NCBI RefSeq assembly: GCF_003391095.1 | Contig: NZ_CP031447.1 | Location: 744,001 to 808,000 of the forward strand | Origin: Austwickia chelonae | Lineage (GTDB): Bacteria; Actinomycetota; Actinomycetes; Actinomycetales; Dermatophilaceae | Length of the DNA: 64,000 nt | Direction of reading: 5' to 3' | Shown here: positions 4,684-32,109 of the stretch, piece by piece | Layout of the letters: every line of letters begins with the position of its first letter | Numbering within the stretch: the first letter of the stretch is position 1 | The notes under the pieces: model-generated | Seen by the model: the letters and a program-made list of their open reading frames with translations, nothing else | Databases searched by the model: none | What the model was told of the DNA's origin: nothing | Translations under genes and position numbers: made by a program

Positions 4684-5334
4684 ATGGAATGCCGTAATTT
4701 TCGCCAATGGGGGCAGTTGATGGTGGGGGGAACCCTCGCTGCGGTGGCCGTCGCCGTCATGACCGCGATGATCGGAGGGTGGATCGACCGGTCGTTGGCC
4801 GGGATCACCTGGAGCGTGGCCTTGTCCGTACTGGGGTGGGTGGTCTTCGTCCGTCCGTGCGTGCGGGTCGACGACACCGGGGTGCGAGTCGTCAACATCC
4901 TGCGCGACATCCACCTTCCCTGGGAGCGCGTGGACGGGGCGCGTTCGTCGTGGTCCCTGGTCGTCGAATCAGAGACCGGACATTATTCGTCCTGGGCGAT
5001 CTCCGGCACAGCGAGCCCCGGACGGGACGCCCTCCTGCGCCGTACCGTGCCGTCCCGCCCCGGAGAGAACCCCACGACCACGCAGCTGAACCGCACCGCA
5101 GACGCCGGGCATGTGCTCACCGTCGAGGCCGATGACGTCCACGCAGGGATGACACCTCCCTCGCTCGGCGCCTCCGCTGCCGCGATCGCCGCGCTCATCG
5201 AGCGTCACCGCCTGGACCGGCCCTTGCCCGGCGAGGGATCCACTGCCGAGCAGGTCACCTCCAGGTGGGCGTGGCCCTCAGTGATCCTGCTGGCGCTGAG
5301 CCTCACCGCTGTGGTCGTCGTCTCGTGGGTGTGA
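4684..5334 (+). CDS. PH-domain-like membrane protein
   Basis: A 216-residue protein with two N-terminal membrane helices (about 12-33 and 38-56), a beta-rich domain starting with the VRVDDTGVRVVNILRDIHLPW stretch that resembles bacterial PH domains, and a C-terminal helix (about 198-215). The ATG is preceded by GAGGT at 7 nt. It stands alone between the divergent MoxR operon and the convergent phospho-sugar mutase. Its last codons and stop lie inside the left arm of a 23-bp perfect hairpin. Function is unknown. Confidence 0.7.
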   Translation: MECRNFRQWGQLMVGGTLAAVAVAVMTAMIGGWIDRSLAGITWSVALSVLGWVVFVRPCVRVDDTGVRVVNILRDIHLPWERVDGARSSWSLVVESETGHYSSWAISGTASPGRDALLRRTVPSRPGENPTTTQLNRTADAGHVLTVEADDVHAGMTPPSLGASAAAIAALIERHRLDRPLPGEGSTAEQVTSRWAWPSVILLALSLTAVVVVSWV

Positions 5335-5361
5335 CAGGCACACCCACGAGACGACGACCAC
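5311..5361. terminator. 23-bp perfect hairpin, bidirectional terminator
   Basis: The arms at 5311-5333 and 5339-5361 are perfectly complementary over 23 bp around a 5-nt loop (ACAGG). The element lies at the convergent junction of the PH-like gene and the phospho-sugar mutase, and the left arm includes the last codons and most of the stop codon of the former. No long U tract is obvious, as is common for actinobacterial terminators. Confidence 0.8.
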
Positions 5362-5382
5362 GTGCGGCGAAGAGGACATTCC

Positions 5383-7110
5383 TCAGACGAGGGTGAACGA
5401 CTCGAAAGCCGCCCGAAGCGCTGCTAGCCGGCGTGTCGCCTCGTCGCGGGCGGTGTAGAGCCCGGTGGTGTCCTGCGTGGCGACCACCGTCTCCAGATAC
5501 ACCTTCAGCTTCGGCTCGGTGCCGCTGGGACGGATCACCACGCGGGAACCGTCGGCGAAGGTGTAACGCATTCCCTCGGTCGCCGGGAGAGAGTCCTCCG
5601 GGTGCGAGAGATCCTCGGTCCGTTCCACCATGACTCCGGCGACCGTGCCACCGAAGGTGACTTCCGACTGCAAGCGGTGCATGATCCGCGCAGTCAGAGC
5701 AGGATCGGTCACCCGCACGGCGAAGGTGTCCGTGGCGTGCACACCGTGCGTGGTCTCCAACTCGTCGAGGACGTCGGTCAACGTACGACCCTGATCCTTC
5801 AACCGGGCCGCCAACGCCGCGATCAGCAAACCTGCCGAGATACCGTCCTCGTCCCGGACGACCTGAGGTGCCAGACAGAAAGCGGAGGACTCCTCGTAGC
5901 CCAGACGAAGACCCTCCACCCGGGAGACCCACTTCGACCCGGTCAAGGTCTCCTTGCCTGCGCAACCGGCGGCATCGACGATCTTGTCGAACAACCGGCT
6001 GGACACCAGCGAACGAGCGAAGACCTCACCAGGCTGGACGCCCCGTTGTACGGCGTCCCAGACGAGCAGGGCGCCCACCTCGTCACCCCGTAGCTTGCGC
6101 CAGCCCTCCTCGACGGTCAGATCCGGAACGGCGACCGCACAACGGTCACCGTCGGGGTCGTGCGCGAGGACGATGTCCGCACCCTTCGCCCGGGCCAACG
6201 TGATCGCCAGGTCCAAGGCTCCGGGCTCGTCCGGGCTGGGGTACTCCATGGTCGGGAAGGACGGATCCGGCGCGTCCTGTTCGGCGACCACGGCAGGCGC
6301 GGGGAAACCGGCCTCGTGCAGAACCGCCTTGAAGGTCTCCCCGGCGACACCGTGCAAAGAGGTGTGTACGATCCGCAGATCACGAGGTGCCCCCACCGGC
6401 ACCAGCGCCGACACGGCGTGGACATAGGAGGAAGCGACCTCGTCACCGAGGACCTCCCAGCCGTCGTCGGCCTGAGGAATGTCCACGACCCGACGCACTC
6501 GTTCGATGTGACGCCGGATGTCGCTGTCCATCGGAGGAGCGATCTGCGCCCCGTCGCCCGCATAGACCTTGTACCCGTTGTCCAACGCCGGATTGTGTCC
6601 GCCGGTCACCATGACCCCGGCGTCACAGCACAGATGACGCACCGCGTACGCCAAGACAGGAGTAGGCAGCGGGCGGGGCAGCACCAGAGCCCGACCACCC
6701 GCGCCGACCACCACCGAAGCGGTGTCCCGGACGAACTGGGAAGACGCCAACCGGGCATCGAAACCGACCACCACGGTCGGTAGACCGATCCGGCCGTTGA
6801 GATAACTCATGAGACCCGCAGCGGTACGCATGACCACGGAACTGTTCATCCGGTTCGGGCCGGCGCCCAGCGCCCCGCGCAGCCCAGCAGTGCCGAACTC
6901 CAGCAAACCGTGGAAACGGTGAGTCAGATCGGCCAGCGCCTCGGCCTCCCCGGCCTCGGTCGCTGCGATGAGCTCTTCGAGCTCCTCACGCAGGGCGATA
7001 TCGGGATCATCCTTGATCCACTCACGGGCGTAGGCGATGAGATCGTCCGCGGCTATCTCCACGGGGGTTTCTCTACGGCGGGAACGACGGGTCAACGTTG
7101 GTTCGGTCAT
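5383..7110 (-). CDS. Phospho-sugar mutase (PmmB-like) lacking the catalytic serine
   Basis: This 575-residue alpha-D-phosphohexomutase family protein would normally interconvert hexose 1- and 6-phosphates. The Mg-binding loop DPDGDR (318-323) and phosphate loop RPSGTEP (527-533) are intact. The serine loop, usually T-A/G-S-H-N-P, reads TGGHNP (169-174), so the phosphorylated serine is glycine (codon GGA at 6598-6600). The sugar-recognition loop, usually GYEEALGY-like, reads GYEESSAF (404-411). These changes suggest altered specificity or a non-catalytic paralogue. A strong AAGGAG site precedes the ATG. It follows the nucleoside phosphorylase by 51 nt, probably in the same operon; a similar pair exists in mycobacteria. 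Confidence 0.9.
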   Translation of the reverse strand: MTEPTLTRRSRRRETPVEIAADDLIAYAREWIKDDPDIALREELEELIAATEAGEAEALADLTHRFHGLLEFGTAGLRGALGAGPNRMNSSVVMRTAAGLMSYLNGRIGLPTVVVGFDARLASSQFVRDTASVVVGAGGRALVLPRPLPTPVLAYAVRHLCCDAGVMVTGGHNPALDNGYKVYAGDGAQIAPPMDSDIRRHIERVRRVVDIPQADDGWEVLGDEVASSYVHAVSALVPVGAPRDLRIVHTSLHGVAGETFKAVLHEAGFPAPAVVAEQDAPDPSFPTMEYPSPDEPGALDLAITLARAKGADIVLAHDPDGDRCAVAVPDLTVEEGWRKLRGDEVGALLVWDAVQRGVQPGEVFARSLVSSRLFDKIVDAAGCAGKETLTGSKWVSRVEGLRLGYEESSAFCLAPQVVRDEDGISAGLLIAALAARLKDQGRTLTDVLDELETTHGVHATDTFAVRVTDPALTARIMHRLQSEVTFGGTVAGVMVERTEDLSHPEDSLPATEGMRYTFADGSRVVIRPSGTEPKLKVYLETVVATQDTTGLYTARDEATRRLAALRAAFESFTLV

Positions 7111-7161
7111 GGTGCTCCTTACTCGTGCAGGGTGACCTGCGATCCGGCGATCTCGTGCGGC

Positions 7162-7986
7162 TCAGATCTGCGTCACGATGCTGGCGAGGAGGTTCCCGCA
7201 ACGGGTAGCCGCAGCCTTGCCCGCTGCGATGACCTCCTCATGAGACAACGGGGTGGGAGAGATGCCTGCAGCCGGGTTGGTGACGAGCGAAATGCCCAGC
7301 ACCTCCATTCCGGCCTGGCGTGCTGCGATGACCTCCAGGGCAGTTGACATGCCCACCAGGTCACCGCCGAGGGTCTTCGCCATCCGGACCTCGGCAGGCG
7401 TCTCGTAGTGCGGTCCACGGAACTGGACGTACACGCCCTCATCGAGGCTCGGGTCGACCTGGCGGGCCAGATCGCGCAGACGGGGGGAATAGGCATCAGT
7501 CAGATCGACGAAGTTCGCGCCCTCGATGGGGGAGGAAGCGGTCAGGTTGATGTGGTCGGAGATCAATACTGGCGTGCCGGGAGCCCACTCAGGGCGCAAA
7601 CCGCCACAACCGTTGGTAACTACGACAGTTTGACATCCGGCCGCAGCGGCCGTGCGGATGGGGTGGACCACCGCCCGCACCCCACGTCCTTCGTAGAAAT
7701 GCGTACGAGTGCCGAAGACGAGCGCGCGACGACCGGTGTCACCGATGGCGACCGACCGCATCGTGCCTGAATGACCAGCCACAGCCGCCGCCGCGAAACC
7801 GGGAACATCCTCATTGTCGATGGTCGTGAGGGTCTCACCGATGAGGTCGCCGGTCCGACCCCAGCCGGACCCGAGGACCAAGGCCACGTCATGGCGCGGC
7901 GCATCGGTGCGCTCGGCGATGACCGCAGCTGCCGCGGAAGCGAGCTCGAAGGGATCGATGTCAGATGAAGGGAGCAGAACCGCCAT
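7162..7986 (-). CDS. punA: Purine-nucleoside phosphorylase
   Basis: The 274-residue protein belongs to the trimeric PNP family, which phosphorolyses (deoxy)inosine and (deoxy)guanosine to base and (deoxy)ribose 1-phosphate. Family signatures are GSGWG (phosphate loop), GHSG, RTHFYEG, the TNGCGGL motif, and the MSTALEV / TNPAAG substrate region, where the Asn of TNPAAG contacts the purine. The product, a pentose 1-phosphate, is a possible substrate for the adjacent mutase, which is an inference from context. A TAGGCT box 6 nt before the ATG suggests a leaderless transcript. Confidence 0.95.
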
Positions 7987-7992
7987 GCACCG

Positions 7993-7998
7993 AGCCTA
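7993..7998 (-). promoter_or_regulatory. -10 box of punA, leaderless start
   Basis: On the minus strand TAGGCT ends 6 nt before the ATG at 7986. It fits the actinobacterial TANNNT -10 consensus, so transcription would begin at or next to the start codon. No Shine-Dalgarno sequence is possible in that spacing. Confidence 0.55.
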
Positions 7999-8089
7999 CG
8001 ACCTCCCACCCCACCGGCCGACGGTCCGGTAGGCATAAGCGCCCTTGCCACTCAGGCTACCCGGCCCGTCGAGGTGGTTGGATGGAGGG

Positions 8090-9502
8090 GTGAACGAAAC
8101 TCAGCAGCGGGTGACAGTGCTCGGCGGCGGCCCCGGGGGATACGAGGCCGCACTGGTCGCGGCCTCGCTGGGAGCCCACGTCACCGTGGTCGACACCGAC
8201 GGCATCGGCGGGGCCTGCGTCCTGTCCGATTGCGTCCCCAGCAAAGCACTCATCTCCACCGCGGCCTACGTCGGACGCGTCGGACAGGCCGAACAGATGG
8301 GAGTCCGGCTCGGCTCCTCCCCGGCCCGGCACGCCAACGACTCCGTCCTCGACGCCGACCTGCCCGCCGTGAACACCCGGATCAAAACACTCGCCAGACG
8401 GCAAAGCACCGACATCGCCACCGGCCTGCGTGACCGCGGCGTCGACGTCGTCCACGGACGAGGCCGACTCACCGGCCCCTCGACCGTCCAGATCCGACCC
8501 TTCGACGGCGACACCTACGAGAACCGCTCCGACATGATCCTGATCGCGACCGGAGCAGCCCCTCGCACCACCGACAGCGCCCGCCCCGACGGAGAACGCA
8601 TCCTCACCTGGCAACAGATCTGGGAACTGCCACAGATCCCCGAACACCTCATCGTCGTCGGCTCCGGAGTCACCGGAGCCGAACTCGCCCAGGCCTACCT
8701 CGGACTGGGGGCCCACGTCACACTCGTCTCCTCCCGAGACCGAGTGCTGCCCGGGGAGGACCAGGACGCAGCCCACGTCATCGAAGACGTCTTCCGCGAA
8801 CGAGGGATGACCGTCCTCAACCGCTCCCGGATGGCCGCCGTCCGGCGCACCGACGACGGCGTGCTCGTCCAGCTCGAAGACGGCCGGGAGATCACCGGGA
8901 GCCATGCACTCCTCGCCGTGGGATCAGTGCCCCGGACCACCGAACTCGGACTGGAGACCGCCGGAGTCGCCCTCACCGACCGCGGACACATCAAGGTCGA
9001 CCGGGTCTCCCGCACCACCGTCCGTGGCATCTACGCCGCCGGAGACTGCACCGGAGTCCTCCCCCTCGCCTCGGTCGCCGCCATGCAAGGACGTATCGCC
9101 GTGGCCCACGCCCTCGGCGACGCCGTCAGCCCCCTGGACATCCGCGGAGTCAGCTCCAACATCTTCACCGACCCCGAGATCGCCACCGTCGGCCTGTCCC
9201 AGTCACAGGCCGAGACGACGAACGACGTCCGGCAGATCCTCATGCCCCTGGCCACCAATGCGCGAGCCAAGATGGACGACGTCCAGGTCGGCTTCGTGAA
9301 GCTCTTCGCCCGCAACGGCAGCAACCAGGTCGTCGGCGGCGTCGTCGTCGCCCCTCGAGCCTCCGAACTGATCTTCCCGATCGCGCTCGCCGTCGGACAG
9401 CGTTTGACCGTGGACCAGGTCGCCGCCACCATCACCGTGTACCCCTCGTTGTCGGGTTCGATCGCCGAAGCGGCCAGGCGGCTGCACTCGGTGGAGGGAT
9501 GA
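8090..9502 (+). CDS. lpdA: NAD(P)H-quinone dehydrogenase, LpdA-type flavoprotein
   Basis: A 470-residue FAD/NAD disulfide-reductase family protein. The FAD motif is GGGPGG (12-17), the redox pair is C43/C48 in GGACVLSDCVPSK, the NAD(P) motif is GSGVTG, and a second FAD motif is IYAAGDCTG. The C-terminal motif reads VYPSLSGS where true lipoamide dehydrogenases have a catalytic His (HAHPT), which matches mycobacterial LpdA (Rv3303c), a quinone reductase rather than a complex E3 subunit. A frame start at 8045 exists, but the GTG at 8090 after GGAGG begins right at the Rossmann fold. The SD spacing is very short, so the exact start is uncertain. Confidence 0.85.
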   Translation: MNETQQRVTVLGGGPGGYEAALVAASLGAHVTVVDTDGIGGACVLSDCVPSKALISTAAYVGRVGQAEQMGVRLGSSPARHANDSVLDADLPAVNTRIKTLARRQSTDIATGLRDRGVDVVHGRGRLTGPSTVQIRPFDGDTYENRSDMILIATGAAPRTTDSARPDGERILTWQQIWELPQIPEHLIVVGSGVTGAELAQAYLGLGAHVTLVSSRDRVLPGEDQDAAHVIEDVFRERGMTVLNRSRMAAVRRTDDGVLVQLEDGREITGSHALLAVGSVPRTTELGLETAGVALTDRGHIKVDRVSRTTVRGIYAAGDCTGVLPLASVAAMQGRIAVAHALGDAVSPLDIRGVSSNIFTDPEIATVGLSQSQAETTNDVRQILMPLATNARAKMDDVQVGFVKLFARNGSNQVVGGVVVAPRASELIFPIALAVGQRLTVDQVAATITVYPSLSGSIAEAARRLHSVEG

Positions 9503-20510: not shown

Positions 20511-20546
20511 CCGGTCGGTCGTGCCTGTGTGAAGATCGACGAGGCA

Positions 20547-20560
20547 TGAACGTACGTTCA
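20547..20560. promoter_or_regulatory. LexA-like palindrome TGAACGTACGTTCA
   Basis: A perfect 14-bp palindrome. Its core GAAC-N4-GTTC matches the LexA/SOS box core of Gram-positive bacteria, but the outermost positions are T/A instead of C/G. It lies 150 nt upstream of the flagellin-like gene. It may be a coincidence. Confidence 0.4.
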
Positions 20561-20709
20561 CGGTTCTTCGTCCGTTCTTTCCTTGCAGGTGGCCCAGGTC
20601 ATCCGCTCAACTGTGCTTCGGCCCGGCCGATGGGAAGGTCAGGCATCCGTCCACGGCCCAGGCCGCCGGTCGCCACAGCGGAACATCTCGGGGCGAAGGA
20701 AGTGGCGGC

Positions 20710-21810
20710 ATGAGAATCGGTGTCGATGAGGACTCGTCGCGCAGGGTCGACCTCGAGACCTGGGCGGCACAGATCGCCGCGATGCATCTCACCGTGGCCC
20801 GGCTGACCCCGTCCGCCTCGGCACCGGACCGGGCTGAAGACCGTGGCACCGCGCCAGTCGTCGACATCGCGGCGGCACAAGGTGCCCGCGCGCACATGTT
20901 CGCTGCCCGAGAAGGTCAGATGACCGTCCAAGAAGGACTCGGCTATCTCCGTGTGGCCTCAGCCGACCTGCAACGCGCCCAGGAAGTGCTGGGTCGGATG
21001 AGCGTCGTGTCGGCGCAGGCGACCGATCAGAGCTATGACGCCGCACAACGGGCCGGGCTGCAGAAATACTTCGACCGGTCGGTGCAGGAGCTGGAAGGGA
21101 TCGCCGAACAGGCCCGCTATCACACCCTGCGGATGCTGGGTGGCAGCGCTTCCGCCTGGTCGCTGCCGGAAGGCGCGGTGATACCGACGGCGGCGCCGGC
21201 GATGGTGGACCGCCCCGGAACTCCGCGCCGGGAAGCCCGCCCGATGCCGACCCGAGAAGGTGCCGTTGATGCACCGGATCAGGGCCGACCCGAGTCGTAC
21301 CGGGAGACCTCGGCGCTGACGACGGAGCACGGTGAACGGACACGCTCCTCCCTGGCCTCACCGGCGCAGGCGCTTCTGGCCCTGGAACGGGTCGGTCATG
21401 CCGAGAACATCCTGGCGCAGATCTCCTCGGTGGTGAACGAGGCCGAGGCGAGCATGCACCGGATGATCCGGGACTGGGGATTGTCCGCCGGACGCCAGCC
21501 CGGAATGGACCATGACCATTCACCGGCCGCGGCGATGAACCGCCAACTGGCTCTTCACGAAGCCACCCGATCCGGTGCCTCGGTCCTGGTGGAGGCGACG
21601 CGCGCGCAGTTCCAGGCAGTGACGACCGTAGCTGGTGGTGTCGTGGTGGCGGCTGTGCTGGGTGCAGCGGCCTCGCCGGTACGTGAGCCCGCTGCCAGTG
21701 AAAAACCCTCGGTTGAACCGGTGGCCTCACCGGCCGGTTCGGCGCGGACGGCGACGGACGAGCGACGCGAGAGCGGACAGGGGCAGGGTTCTGGAGTGGC
21801 TCGCCGCTGA
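20710..21810 (+). CDS. Orphan flagellin-like coiled-coil protein
   Basis: A 366-residue protein of no assigned family in my reading. Residues about 72-144 follow the heptad and key positions of the flagellin N-terminal D1 helices: LGYLRVASADLQRAQEVLGR parallels the helix after the turn, then AGLQKYFDRSVQELEGIAEQA and a terminal RMLGG parallel the LQ-E-I-RIA and LLDG elements. Residues about 219-256 (ALERVGHAENILAQISSVVN) resemble the C-terminal flagellin helix. Between them is a Pro/Arg-rich linker, and the tail has one hydrophobic segment (306-321) and a low-complexity end absent from flagellins. No flagellar genes are adjacent. GGAAG precedes the ATG. Confidence 0.6.
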   Translation: MRIGVDEDSSRRVDLETWAAQIAAMHLTVARLTPSASAPDRAEDRGTAPVVDIAAAQGARAHMFAAREGQMTVQEGLGYLRVASADLQRAQEVLGRMSVVSAQATDQSYDAAQRAGLQKYFDRSVQELEGIAEQARYHTLRMLGGSASAWSLPEGAVIPTAAPAMVDRPGTPRREARPMPTREGAVDAPDQGRPESYRETSALTTEHGERTRSSLASPAQALLALERVGHAENILAQISSVVNEAEASMHRMIRDWGLSAGRQPGMDHDHSPAAAMNRQLALHEATRSGASVLVEATRAQFQAVTTVAGGVVVAAVLGAAASPVREPAASEKPSVEPVASPAGSARTATDERRESGQGQGSGVARR

Positions 21811-30184: not shown

Positions 30185-31315
30185 ATGACCACCGGCAGCG
30201 GCGCCGGGCGCGCGCCTACGTCCCGAGGGCTCTTTGCGGCGGTACCGGCAACGGATCCGTCCGGCGAGCTGTCGGGTGCTGTCGCGGGATATGCCCGGGG
30301 CGAGGTGTGCGAGGCAGTGGGGATACCCCTGCCTGCGGCGCGGCGGTTCTGGCATGCCCTCGGGTTCCCGAGGGTGGGTGATGCCGAGGCCATCTTCACC
30401 GACGAGGATGTTCAGGCTCTGTCCCAGATCGTCGGGTTGATCCGCCGTGGCGTCCTCGATGAGGAGAGCGCCGTGGGCATGACCCGGGCGATCGGGCGGA
30501 GCGCGGACCGGTTGACCGCCTGGCAGACCCAGCTGATCCGGGAGATGGCTTCCGAGGAGGTCTCCGACCGGTTCGACACCGCGTCGACGGTGTCACCGCG
30601 TTCCGGGGAGCTGTCCACGGCCGGGCTGGCTGCTGAGCTGGCTGATGAACTCGAGCCCCTGCTGATCTATGCCTGGCGCAGGCACCTCGCTGCGACCGTA
30701 TCGCAAATGAGTACGGCGGCTGACGACCTCCGCGAGCGTTCTGCCAAGGAGATGACGGTCGGGTTCGCCGACATGGTCGGATTCACTCGAATCGTCCGCC
30801 GTCTCGACGAACACGAGCTCGGCTCACTGGTGCAGCGCTTCGAAGCAGCGGCCTCGGACACCGTGGCCGCCTACGGGGGGCGGCTGGTGAAAACGGTCGG
30901 TGACGAAGTGCTCTTCTGCTGTAGTTCCCCCGAGGCCGCCGCAGGCATCGCCCTGACTCTGATCGATGTCCATGCCAAGCAGGGGGACCTGCCCCCGTTA
31001 CGGGCCGGGTTGGCCACCGGACCGGTGACGGCGAGGTTGGGGGATCTCTACGGTGTCACGGTCAATCGGGCTTCCCGGCTGACCGGCCTGGCCCGTCCGG
31101 GGACAGCGCTGGCCGATGTCGAGTCCGGCGAACGGCTGCAGGAGCACCACGGGATCCGGCTGTCTGCGCTACGCGCCCGGGAACTGCGTGGTTTCGGGCC
31201 GACCCGGGCTTATGCGATTCGTCCCGGCAGCGAAGGTCCGCCGCGTCCGGCCCGGTCGCCGGTGCCTCATCTCCGCCATCATCTCCGTCGTCCCTTTCGT
31301 GGAGGCCTGTCATGA
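30185..31315 (+). CDS. Class III adenylate cyclase with MerR-like N-terminal domain
   Basis: A 376-residue cytosolic protein. Residues about 30-105 ([20 protein letters not shown], then [12 protein letters not shown]) resemble the MerR-like regulatory domain found in some actinobacterial cyclases. The catalytic CHD domain spans about 190-350 with metal aspartates D196 (FADMVGFT) and D240 ([10 protein letters not shown]), and K236 at the adenine-specifying position. It should make cAMP. The frame continues upstream through birA, but the ATG at 30185 is the first after the birA stop. Its stop overlaps the next ATG by 4 nt, coupling it to an enoyl-CoA hydratase. Confidence 0.85.
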
Positions 31316-32109
31316 CCGAGCACAGCCCGTTGGTGACCGTTCGTCGTCACGGCCCGCAGGACCGGGTGGCCGAGCTGGTCCTCGACCGGCCCGAGGCGAT
31401 GAATGCGGTGTCGACGGCGATGGCGGAGGCCATCGCCACGGCGACTGGCGAACTCGCCCGTGACCAAGGCATCTCCTGTGTGGTGTTGACCAGTACGCAC
31501 TCCCGTGCGTTCTGCGTGGGCGCCGATCTGAAGGAGCGCCGGACCTTCTCCGACGCCGATCTCTTCGCCCAACGTCCCGTGGCCCGGGCCGCTTACACCG
31601 GGGTTCTAGACCTGCCGATGCCCGTGGTGGCCGCGGTGGACGGTTTCGCGCTGGGCGGAGGCTGCGAGCTGGCGCTGGCCTGCGACCTGGTCGTGGCCGG
31701 AGCCGAGGCTGTCCTGGGCCTGCCGGAGGTTTCGGTGGGTGTCATCCCCGGCGGAGGCGGTACGCAGTTGCTGACCCGTCGGGTCGGCTGGTCGAAGGCC
31801 GCCCGGCTGATCTTCACCGCCCAACGACTGACCGCGGCGGAGGCTGTCGAGCACGGCCTGGTCGATCTGCTGACGCCAGCGGGTCAGGCTCGTGACCAGT
31901 CTTTGGACTTGGCTGGTCGGATCGCCGTGCACAGCCCGGTCGGTCTGCGACAGGCCAAGCGGGCCATGCGGTTGGGCGCTGACGTGGATCTGCGTTCAGG
32001 CTTGGAGATCGAGGATGCTTGCTGGCGGTCCACGGCGTTCAGTGCCGACCGGGCCGAAGGCGTGGCGGCTTTCGTGGAAAAGCGCGAGCCACGCTGGCCG
32101 GGATATTGA
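31312..32109 (+). CDS. Enoyl-CoA hydratase/isomerase family protein
   Basis: A 265-residue crotonase-fold enzyme. Oxyanion-hole segments are SRAFCVGADLKER and FALGGGCELALACDL; a catalytic Glu is present in GLPEVSVGVIPGGGG. The AUH/methylglutaconyl-CoA-hydratase-like spacing hints at a role in leucine or fatty-acid breakdown, but this is not certain. GGAGG precedes the ATG at 7 nt. It is translationally coupled to the adenylate cyclase, an unusual pairing. Confidence 0.9.
   Translation: MTEHSPLVTVRRHGPQDRVAELVLDRPEAMNAVSTAMAEAIATATGELARDQGISCVVLTSTHSRAFCVGADLKERRTFSDADLFAQRPVARAAYTGVLDLPMPVVAAVDGFALGGGCELALACDLVVAGAEAVLGLPEVSVGVIPGGGGTQLLTRRVGWSKAARLIFTAQRLTAAEAVEHGLVDLLTPAGQARDQSLDLAGRIAVHSPVGLRQAKRAMRLGADVDLRSGLEIEDACWRSTAFSADRAEGVAAFVEKREPRWPGY

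Follow-up and report, generated by a model that had tools for sequence, protein, structure and literature searches.

A serine-less phospho-sugar mutase homologue in Austwickia chelonae, a candidate phosphosugar-binding pseudoenzyme

Among described proteins, those closest to the one considered here are the PmmB/PGM2-type mutases, represented by the phosphopentomutase PGM2 and the glucose-1,6-bisphosphate synthase PGM2L1. The α-phosphohexomutases are commonly defined by a phosphoserine, which, going by passages of the literature, even the inactive PGM5 retains. The sugar-binding loop differs among these proteins. According to the passages of PMC5570346 that deal with it, the first Glu and the Ser of the PGM1 loop GEESF contact sugar hydroxyls; PGM2L1 is similar and PGM2 is without the Ser. 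The homologue described below, the product of a pmmB-type gene in a 64,000-nucleotide stretch of A. chelonae DNA (the window), has neither the phosphoserine nor the sugar loop of its subfamily.

The pmmB locus and the loss of its phosphoserine

The chromosome of the host, A. chelonae LK16-18, measures 3,628,119 bp; the assembly, obtained from PacBio reads with Illumina correction, totals 3,631,970 bases including a plasmid of 3,851 bp (PMC6256576). The window pmmB protein is a four-domain α-D-phosphohexomutase of PGM2/PmmB type, in which all four domains, PGM_PMM_I to IV, exceed their Pfam cut-offs (Table 1). The interval 5878–6606 given in a preliminary description of this DNA places the loops correctly but spans only part of the gene (5383–7110). 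A scan of positions 5200–8200 for promoters and terminators found none.

Table 1. Features of the pmmB locus and of its paralogue; window positions unless a contig is given
Feature	Position	Strand	Basis or comparison
pmmB-type phospho-sugar mutase homologue, serine-less, 575 aa	5383..7110	-	ORF, Pfam and model
Catalytic loop TGGHNP, residues 169-174; Ala-Ser replaced by Gly170-Gly171	6589..6606	-	
Codon GGA, Gly171, at the phosphoserine position	6598..6600	-	Sister genome: GGG
Metal-binding loop DPDGD (318-322), three Asp retained	6145..6159	-	Alignment
Ser392 within TLTGSKW; Phe in 61/61 relatives	5935..5937	-	Alignment
Sugar loop GYEESSAF (404-411); GYEEALGY or GYEEAIGY in relatives	5878..5901	-	Alignment
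Glu421 within VRDEDG; Lys in 61/61 relatives	5848..5850	-	Alignment
Phosphate-binding loop RPSGTEPK (527-534), intact	5509..5532	-	Sequence
AAGGAG, likely ribosome-binding site preceding the pmmB ATG	7115..7120	-	Read from sequence
Purine-nucleoside phosphorylase (PNP), 51 bp upstream of pmmB	7162..7986	-	NCBIfam TIGR01698, above cut-off
pmmB2 (TASHNP, GYEEAIGY)	G000:C1:1510782-1512512		48% identical to window protein

In the predicted structure the mutase fold is complete, with a pTM of 0.80 and a mean pLDDT of 79.2; the model was built from five aligned sequences, and residues 171–177 have pLDDT values below 50. It matches a Thermococcus phosphoglucomutase (9du5) with a Z of 41.4 over 440 aligned residues (rmsd 3.0) and a Thermococcus phosphopentomutase (9ix8) with a Z of 37.6. 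The Pfam matches, the pTM and the 9du5 alignment all indicate the four-domain fold (PGM_PMM I to IV) of the superfamily. Moreover, the D-x-D-x-D metal-binding motif and the phosphate loop of domain 4 are present; neither the phosphate loop nor the Asp residues at the metal site have changed, and His172 and Lys181 are likewise retained.

The superfamily hallmark T-x-S-H-N is absent. Gly171 occupies the phosphoserine site of the family and is preceded by Gly170, where relatives have Ala. Its codon (GGA, 6600–6598) is two substitutions from every Ser codon. The sister genome, A. chelonae NBRC 105200 (G002), encodes a protein 94% identical to that of the window, with the same Gly specified by GGG. 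Since this second genome was sequenced separately and uses a different Gly codon, and since the LK16-18 assembly is PacBio-based and Illumina-corrected, an error can be excluded; with about a dozen further changes common to both genomes, we regard a sequencing or assembly artefact as practically inconceivable. The preliminary description had claimed both that the catalytic Ser is replaced by Gly171 in TGGHNP and that a sequencing error could not account for it, and the sister genome bears it out on each point.

The replacement is narrowly confined. Ser is coded in 142 of 144 motif matches in the family (139/149 family genomes), the two exceptions being the A. chelonae orthologues, and the non-Ser residue is therefore not a matter of chance. 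Conservation of TGGHNP across a clade, for which a search had been proposed, is among these matches limited to the two A. chelonae genomes. No wider serine-less mutase clade was found with exact-pattern searches: two non-Ser patterns, each with C or G as the first base of the codon at the Ser position and one of them spelling out H-N-P-x-x-x-N-G-x-K after it, both matched a single genome among 396 Actinomycetota, that of the window, in a sample that consisted of Actinomycetota other than the sister genome and with patterns of a kind that miss diverged motifs. A Ser-permitting control pattern matched in 50 of 50 sampled genomes, and all 105 matches read as Ser codons. A search of the open-licence PMC literature likewise found no natural serine-less phosphohexomutase.

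Extent and history of the active-site changes

The phosphoserine is one of many residues replaced. Comparison with 61 relatives (48 canonical pmmB, 12 family pmmB2-type and one Gleimia sequence) reveals that 14 of 122 columns invariant among them are altered in A. chelonae LK16-18 and NBRC 105200 alike: A170G, S171G, V191A, G256A, V288M, F290Y, N292S, E294D, A321G, F392S, A408S, G410A, Y411F and K421E. The next most deviant sequence has changes in 4 of 126 invariant columns, and the median is 0; the alignment holds two serine-less rows and leaves out L064, L065 and L067, the last a truncated duplicate. Most of the changes fall in the catalytic, metal and sugar loops or in conserved motifs nearby in sequence. 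The sugar loop departs from the subfamily pattern G-Y-E-E-A-[LI]-G-Y, in which A408, G410 and Y411 are invariant in the 61 relatives, and has gained an E-E-S pattern in place of their E-E-A. Both genomes have Ser at 292, 392, 408 and 409. A diverged sugar loop had been recognised before, together with intact metal and phosphate loops, and both observations stand; the earlier list of changes was right but incomplete, having missed invariant-site changes such as F392S and K421E.

By descent and by gene order, following PNP, the gene belongs with PGM2/PmmB. Both serine-less proteins group in the tree with the canonical pmmB of the congener G084 (support 100/100). The stem that they share is long, at 0.78 changes per column where the G084 branch has 0.30, and the tips beyond it are short (0.034 and 0.036). 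Mean identity of PNP to 15 outgroups is 78.0% for A. chelonae and 69.2% for G084, whereas the corresponding values for pmmB and the same 15 outgroups are 55.2% and 61.6%. Because the A. chelonae PNP is closer to the outgroups than that of G084 and its pmmB is farther, the acceleration is specific to pmmB.

Between the two A. chelonae genomes, pmmB has a dN/dS of 0.088, which ranks 23rd among 52 ORFs with a median of 0.099; the ORFs at ranks 50–52, which seem to be spurious, antisense or mismatched, were kept in the ranking. The two proteins differ at 35 residues, only one of them in an invariant column where 7.4 would be expected (p 0.002). From the long stem, the short tips, the dN/dS value and the avoidance of invariant columns, we conclude that a burst of change on the stem was followed by ordinary purifying selection. 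A decaying pseudogene is rejected on account of a dN/dS below the median and the placement of the differences. Loss of a catalytic residue combined with purifying selection, the mark of a pseudoenzyme, is what is found here.

Elsewhere in the window, the comparison of the two Austwickia genomes shows PNP to be under very strong constraint (dN/dS 0.011, rank 2/52), whereas two ORFs, at 20533–21807 and 30925–32106, diverge fast (72.8% and 73.6% identity; dN/dS 0.23 and 0.33).

The paralogue pmmB2 and the possible function of pmmB

The host genome encodes four further phosphohexomutases, all with Ser: GlmM, PMM/PGM and PGM, each above its own NCBIfam cut-off, and pmmB2. The second canonical mutase that the preliminary description suggested looking for elsewhere in the genome is hence at hand. 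The pmmB2 gene lies downstream of the genes for thymidine phosphorylase (deoA) and deoC in a deoA-deoC-pmmB2 cluster, surroundings that are a phosphopentomutase setting. A classical DeoB was considered and rejected, the sole PF01676 match being partial (27.1 bits, cut-off 24.3) and lying on a 436-aa ORF judged by eye not to be DeoB.

PNP adjoins pmmB in all 24 loci examined and is near pmmB2 in one of 13; deoC adjoins pmmB2 in 10 of these 13, seven of which also have deoA. Across the family, about 127 genomes have pmmB only, 10 have pmmB2 only and three have both (G000, the host; G002; and G035). The two genes are mostly mutually exclusive, as expected if both do the same job. The congener G084, with its canonical pmmB, is without pmmB2, and the congener G054 has pmmB2 and is missing pmmB from its PNP locus. 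In G054 (L069:7779-7942), PNP is directly followed by a converging PH-domain gene, with no pmmB between. G103 carries two canonical pmmB genes (L077 and L078), each adjoining a PNP, and two IMG/VR viral contigs (L123 and L124) have PGM2-type mutases of 35–37% identity near a contig end, perhaps host DNA beside a provirus.

As judged from sequence and gene order, pmmB2 probably took over pentose-phosphate mutation in A. chelonae. A single shared replacement event is not demonstrated, because the tree does not unite the pmmB2 of G054 with that of A. chelonae as sisters; and since G035 has the canonical Ser in both genes, the presence of pmmB2 alone does not cause the loss of Ser.

On balance we think it probable that pmmB of A. 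chelonae, replaced by pmmB2 and no longer capable of serine-dependent mutation, has been kept as a phosphosugar-binding pseudoenzyme whose sugar loop is possibly retuned toward hexose phosphate or bisphosphate. Its ancestor is the PNP-linked PmmB (PGM2-like), a phosphopentomutase or phospho-sugar mutase found in this family of actinobacteria. On the way to A. chelonae the phosphoserine was lost and most active-site motifs changed in one burst, with the fold and the metal and phosphate loops kept. Mutation of ribose-1-P and deoxyribose-1-P would have passed to pmmB2, freeing pmmB, which would no longer carry out serine-dependent mutation and would persist as a binder of phosphosugars, in the role of sensor, partner or buffer.

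The experimental analogue is AGM1. In the passages of PMC6096347 devoted to it, activity of the Ser-to-Ala protein could not be detected on any of the substrates tried, yet the protein binds Glc-1,6-bisP, without metal. By this analogy, the serine-less pmmB would have no serine-dependent cycle and could still bind phosphosugars. The E-E-S pattern, resembling that of PGM1, suggests that the sugar loop has possibly shifted toward hexose phosphate ligands. The pairing with PNP noted in the preliminary description is observed, but the pentose 1-phosphate ligand deduced from it is weakened, because the adjacency is inherited from canonical orthologues (24/24) and the loop has acquired a pattern like the PGM1 hexose contacts. 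Against a binding role, K421E exchanges a Lys common to all relatives for an acidic residue, and the protein may thereby have lost the ability to bind a second phosphate; moreover, conserved columns also reflect fold, and their retention is no proof of ligand binding. Of the three options that had been offered at the outset, pseudoenzyme is the best, given the dN/dS of 0.088 and the changes common to both genomes.

More doubtful is the wider proposal that the concerted burst turned the scaffold into a sensor or an enzyme for hexose phosphate or bisphosphate that needs no phosphoserine, possibly through a relocated nucleophile; if true, such serine-free handling would, as far as the literature passages tell, be a first for the superfamily. 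In its enzymatic form, with the mutase scaffold performing phosphoserine-free chemistry on a phosphosugar, we consider it unlikely. The retained metal Asp residues, H172, K181 and phosphate loop, the concentration of the changes in active-site motifs rather than at scattered sites, and the normal purifying selection on the gene would all accord with a new enzyme, but the literature passages offered no precedent, no neighbouring gene points to a new pathway, and K421E and F392S could equally mean loss.

Loss of the Ser need not mean zero activity, since some residual activity is reported for Pseudomonas PMM/PGM Ser108Ala in passages of PMC6096347, which, citing other papers, ascribe it to another phosphorylated residue. 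A protein that is still a mutase, either a weak one or one with a relocated nucleophile, the phosphate being carried by a new Ser (292, 392, 408 or 409) or by the bisphosphate cofactor, could draw on N292S, F392S, A408S and Ser409, which both genomes share. We hold this to be distinctly improbable: the catalytic serine also coordinates the metal, and the same passages describe not only the inactive Ser-to-Ala AGM1 but also a human AGM1 intolerant even of Thr. A pseudogene not yet broken, or a purely structural role without ligand, would suit the presence of a canonical paralogue and the lack of pmmB in G054, but is very improbable for a full-length open frame in two genomes that ranks 23/52 in dN/dS and whose differences avoid invariant columns.

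Comparison with known systems

Returning to the pseudoenzyme that we favour, the window protein shares with the PmmB/PGM2-type mutases the same four Pfam domains, the length and the metal and phosphate loops, and with canonical PmmB orthologues of its family (n=15) a mean identity of 55% and the position after PNP. It differs in that these mutases have the catalytic Ser and E-E-A, whereas the window pmmB has no Ser, E-E-S, K421E, F392S and other changes. Overall, it is a member of the superfamily by descent and fold that lacks the serine and the sugar loop of its kin.

Another parallel is PGM5 (aciculin), a vertebrate pseudo-phosphoglucomutase; according to passages of PMC5570346, it is a phosphohexomutase fold reported to be inactive and retained in a different role. 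PGM5 structures match the window model, and one of them, by its title, contains glucose-1-phosphate. PGM5 keeps TASH (PMC5570346, same passages), unlike the window pmmB, and it represents an unrelated lineage of a different subfamily. The Slr1334-type glucose-1,6-bisphosphate synthase was set aside, as it belongs to another subfamily, cd05800, in the passages of PMC9426568 concerned. Within the same genome, pmmB2 is of the same subfamily but has TASHNP, GYEEAIGY and deoA-deoC neighbours, as against PNP.

GlmM is an active canonical mutase, unlike the serine-less pmmB. The complex of GlmM with the diadenylate cyclase CdaA, known here from PDB titles, is a precedent for a phosphohexomutase bound to another enzyme. 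With a natural serine-less member, a canonical congener, a gene-less congener and a replacement paralogue, the transition from enzyme to pseudoenzyme becomes observable in A. chelonae and its relatives, and the system allows testing of what a mutase scaffold serves for without catalysis.
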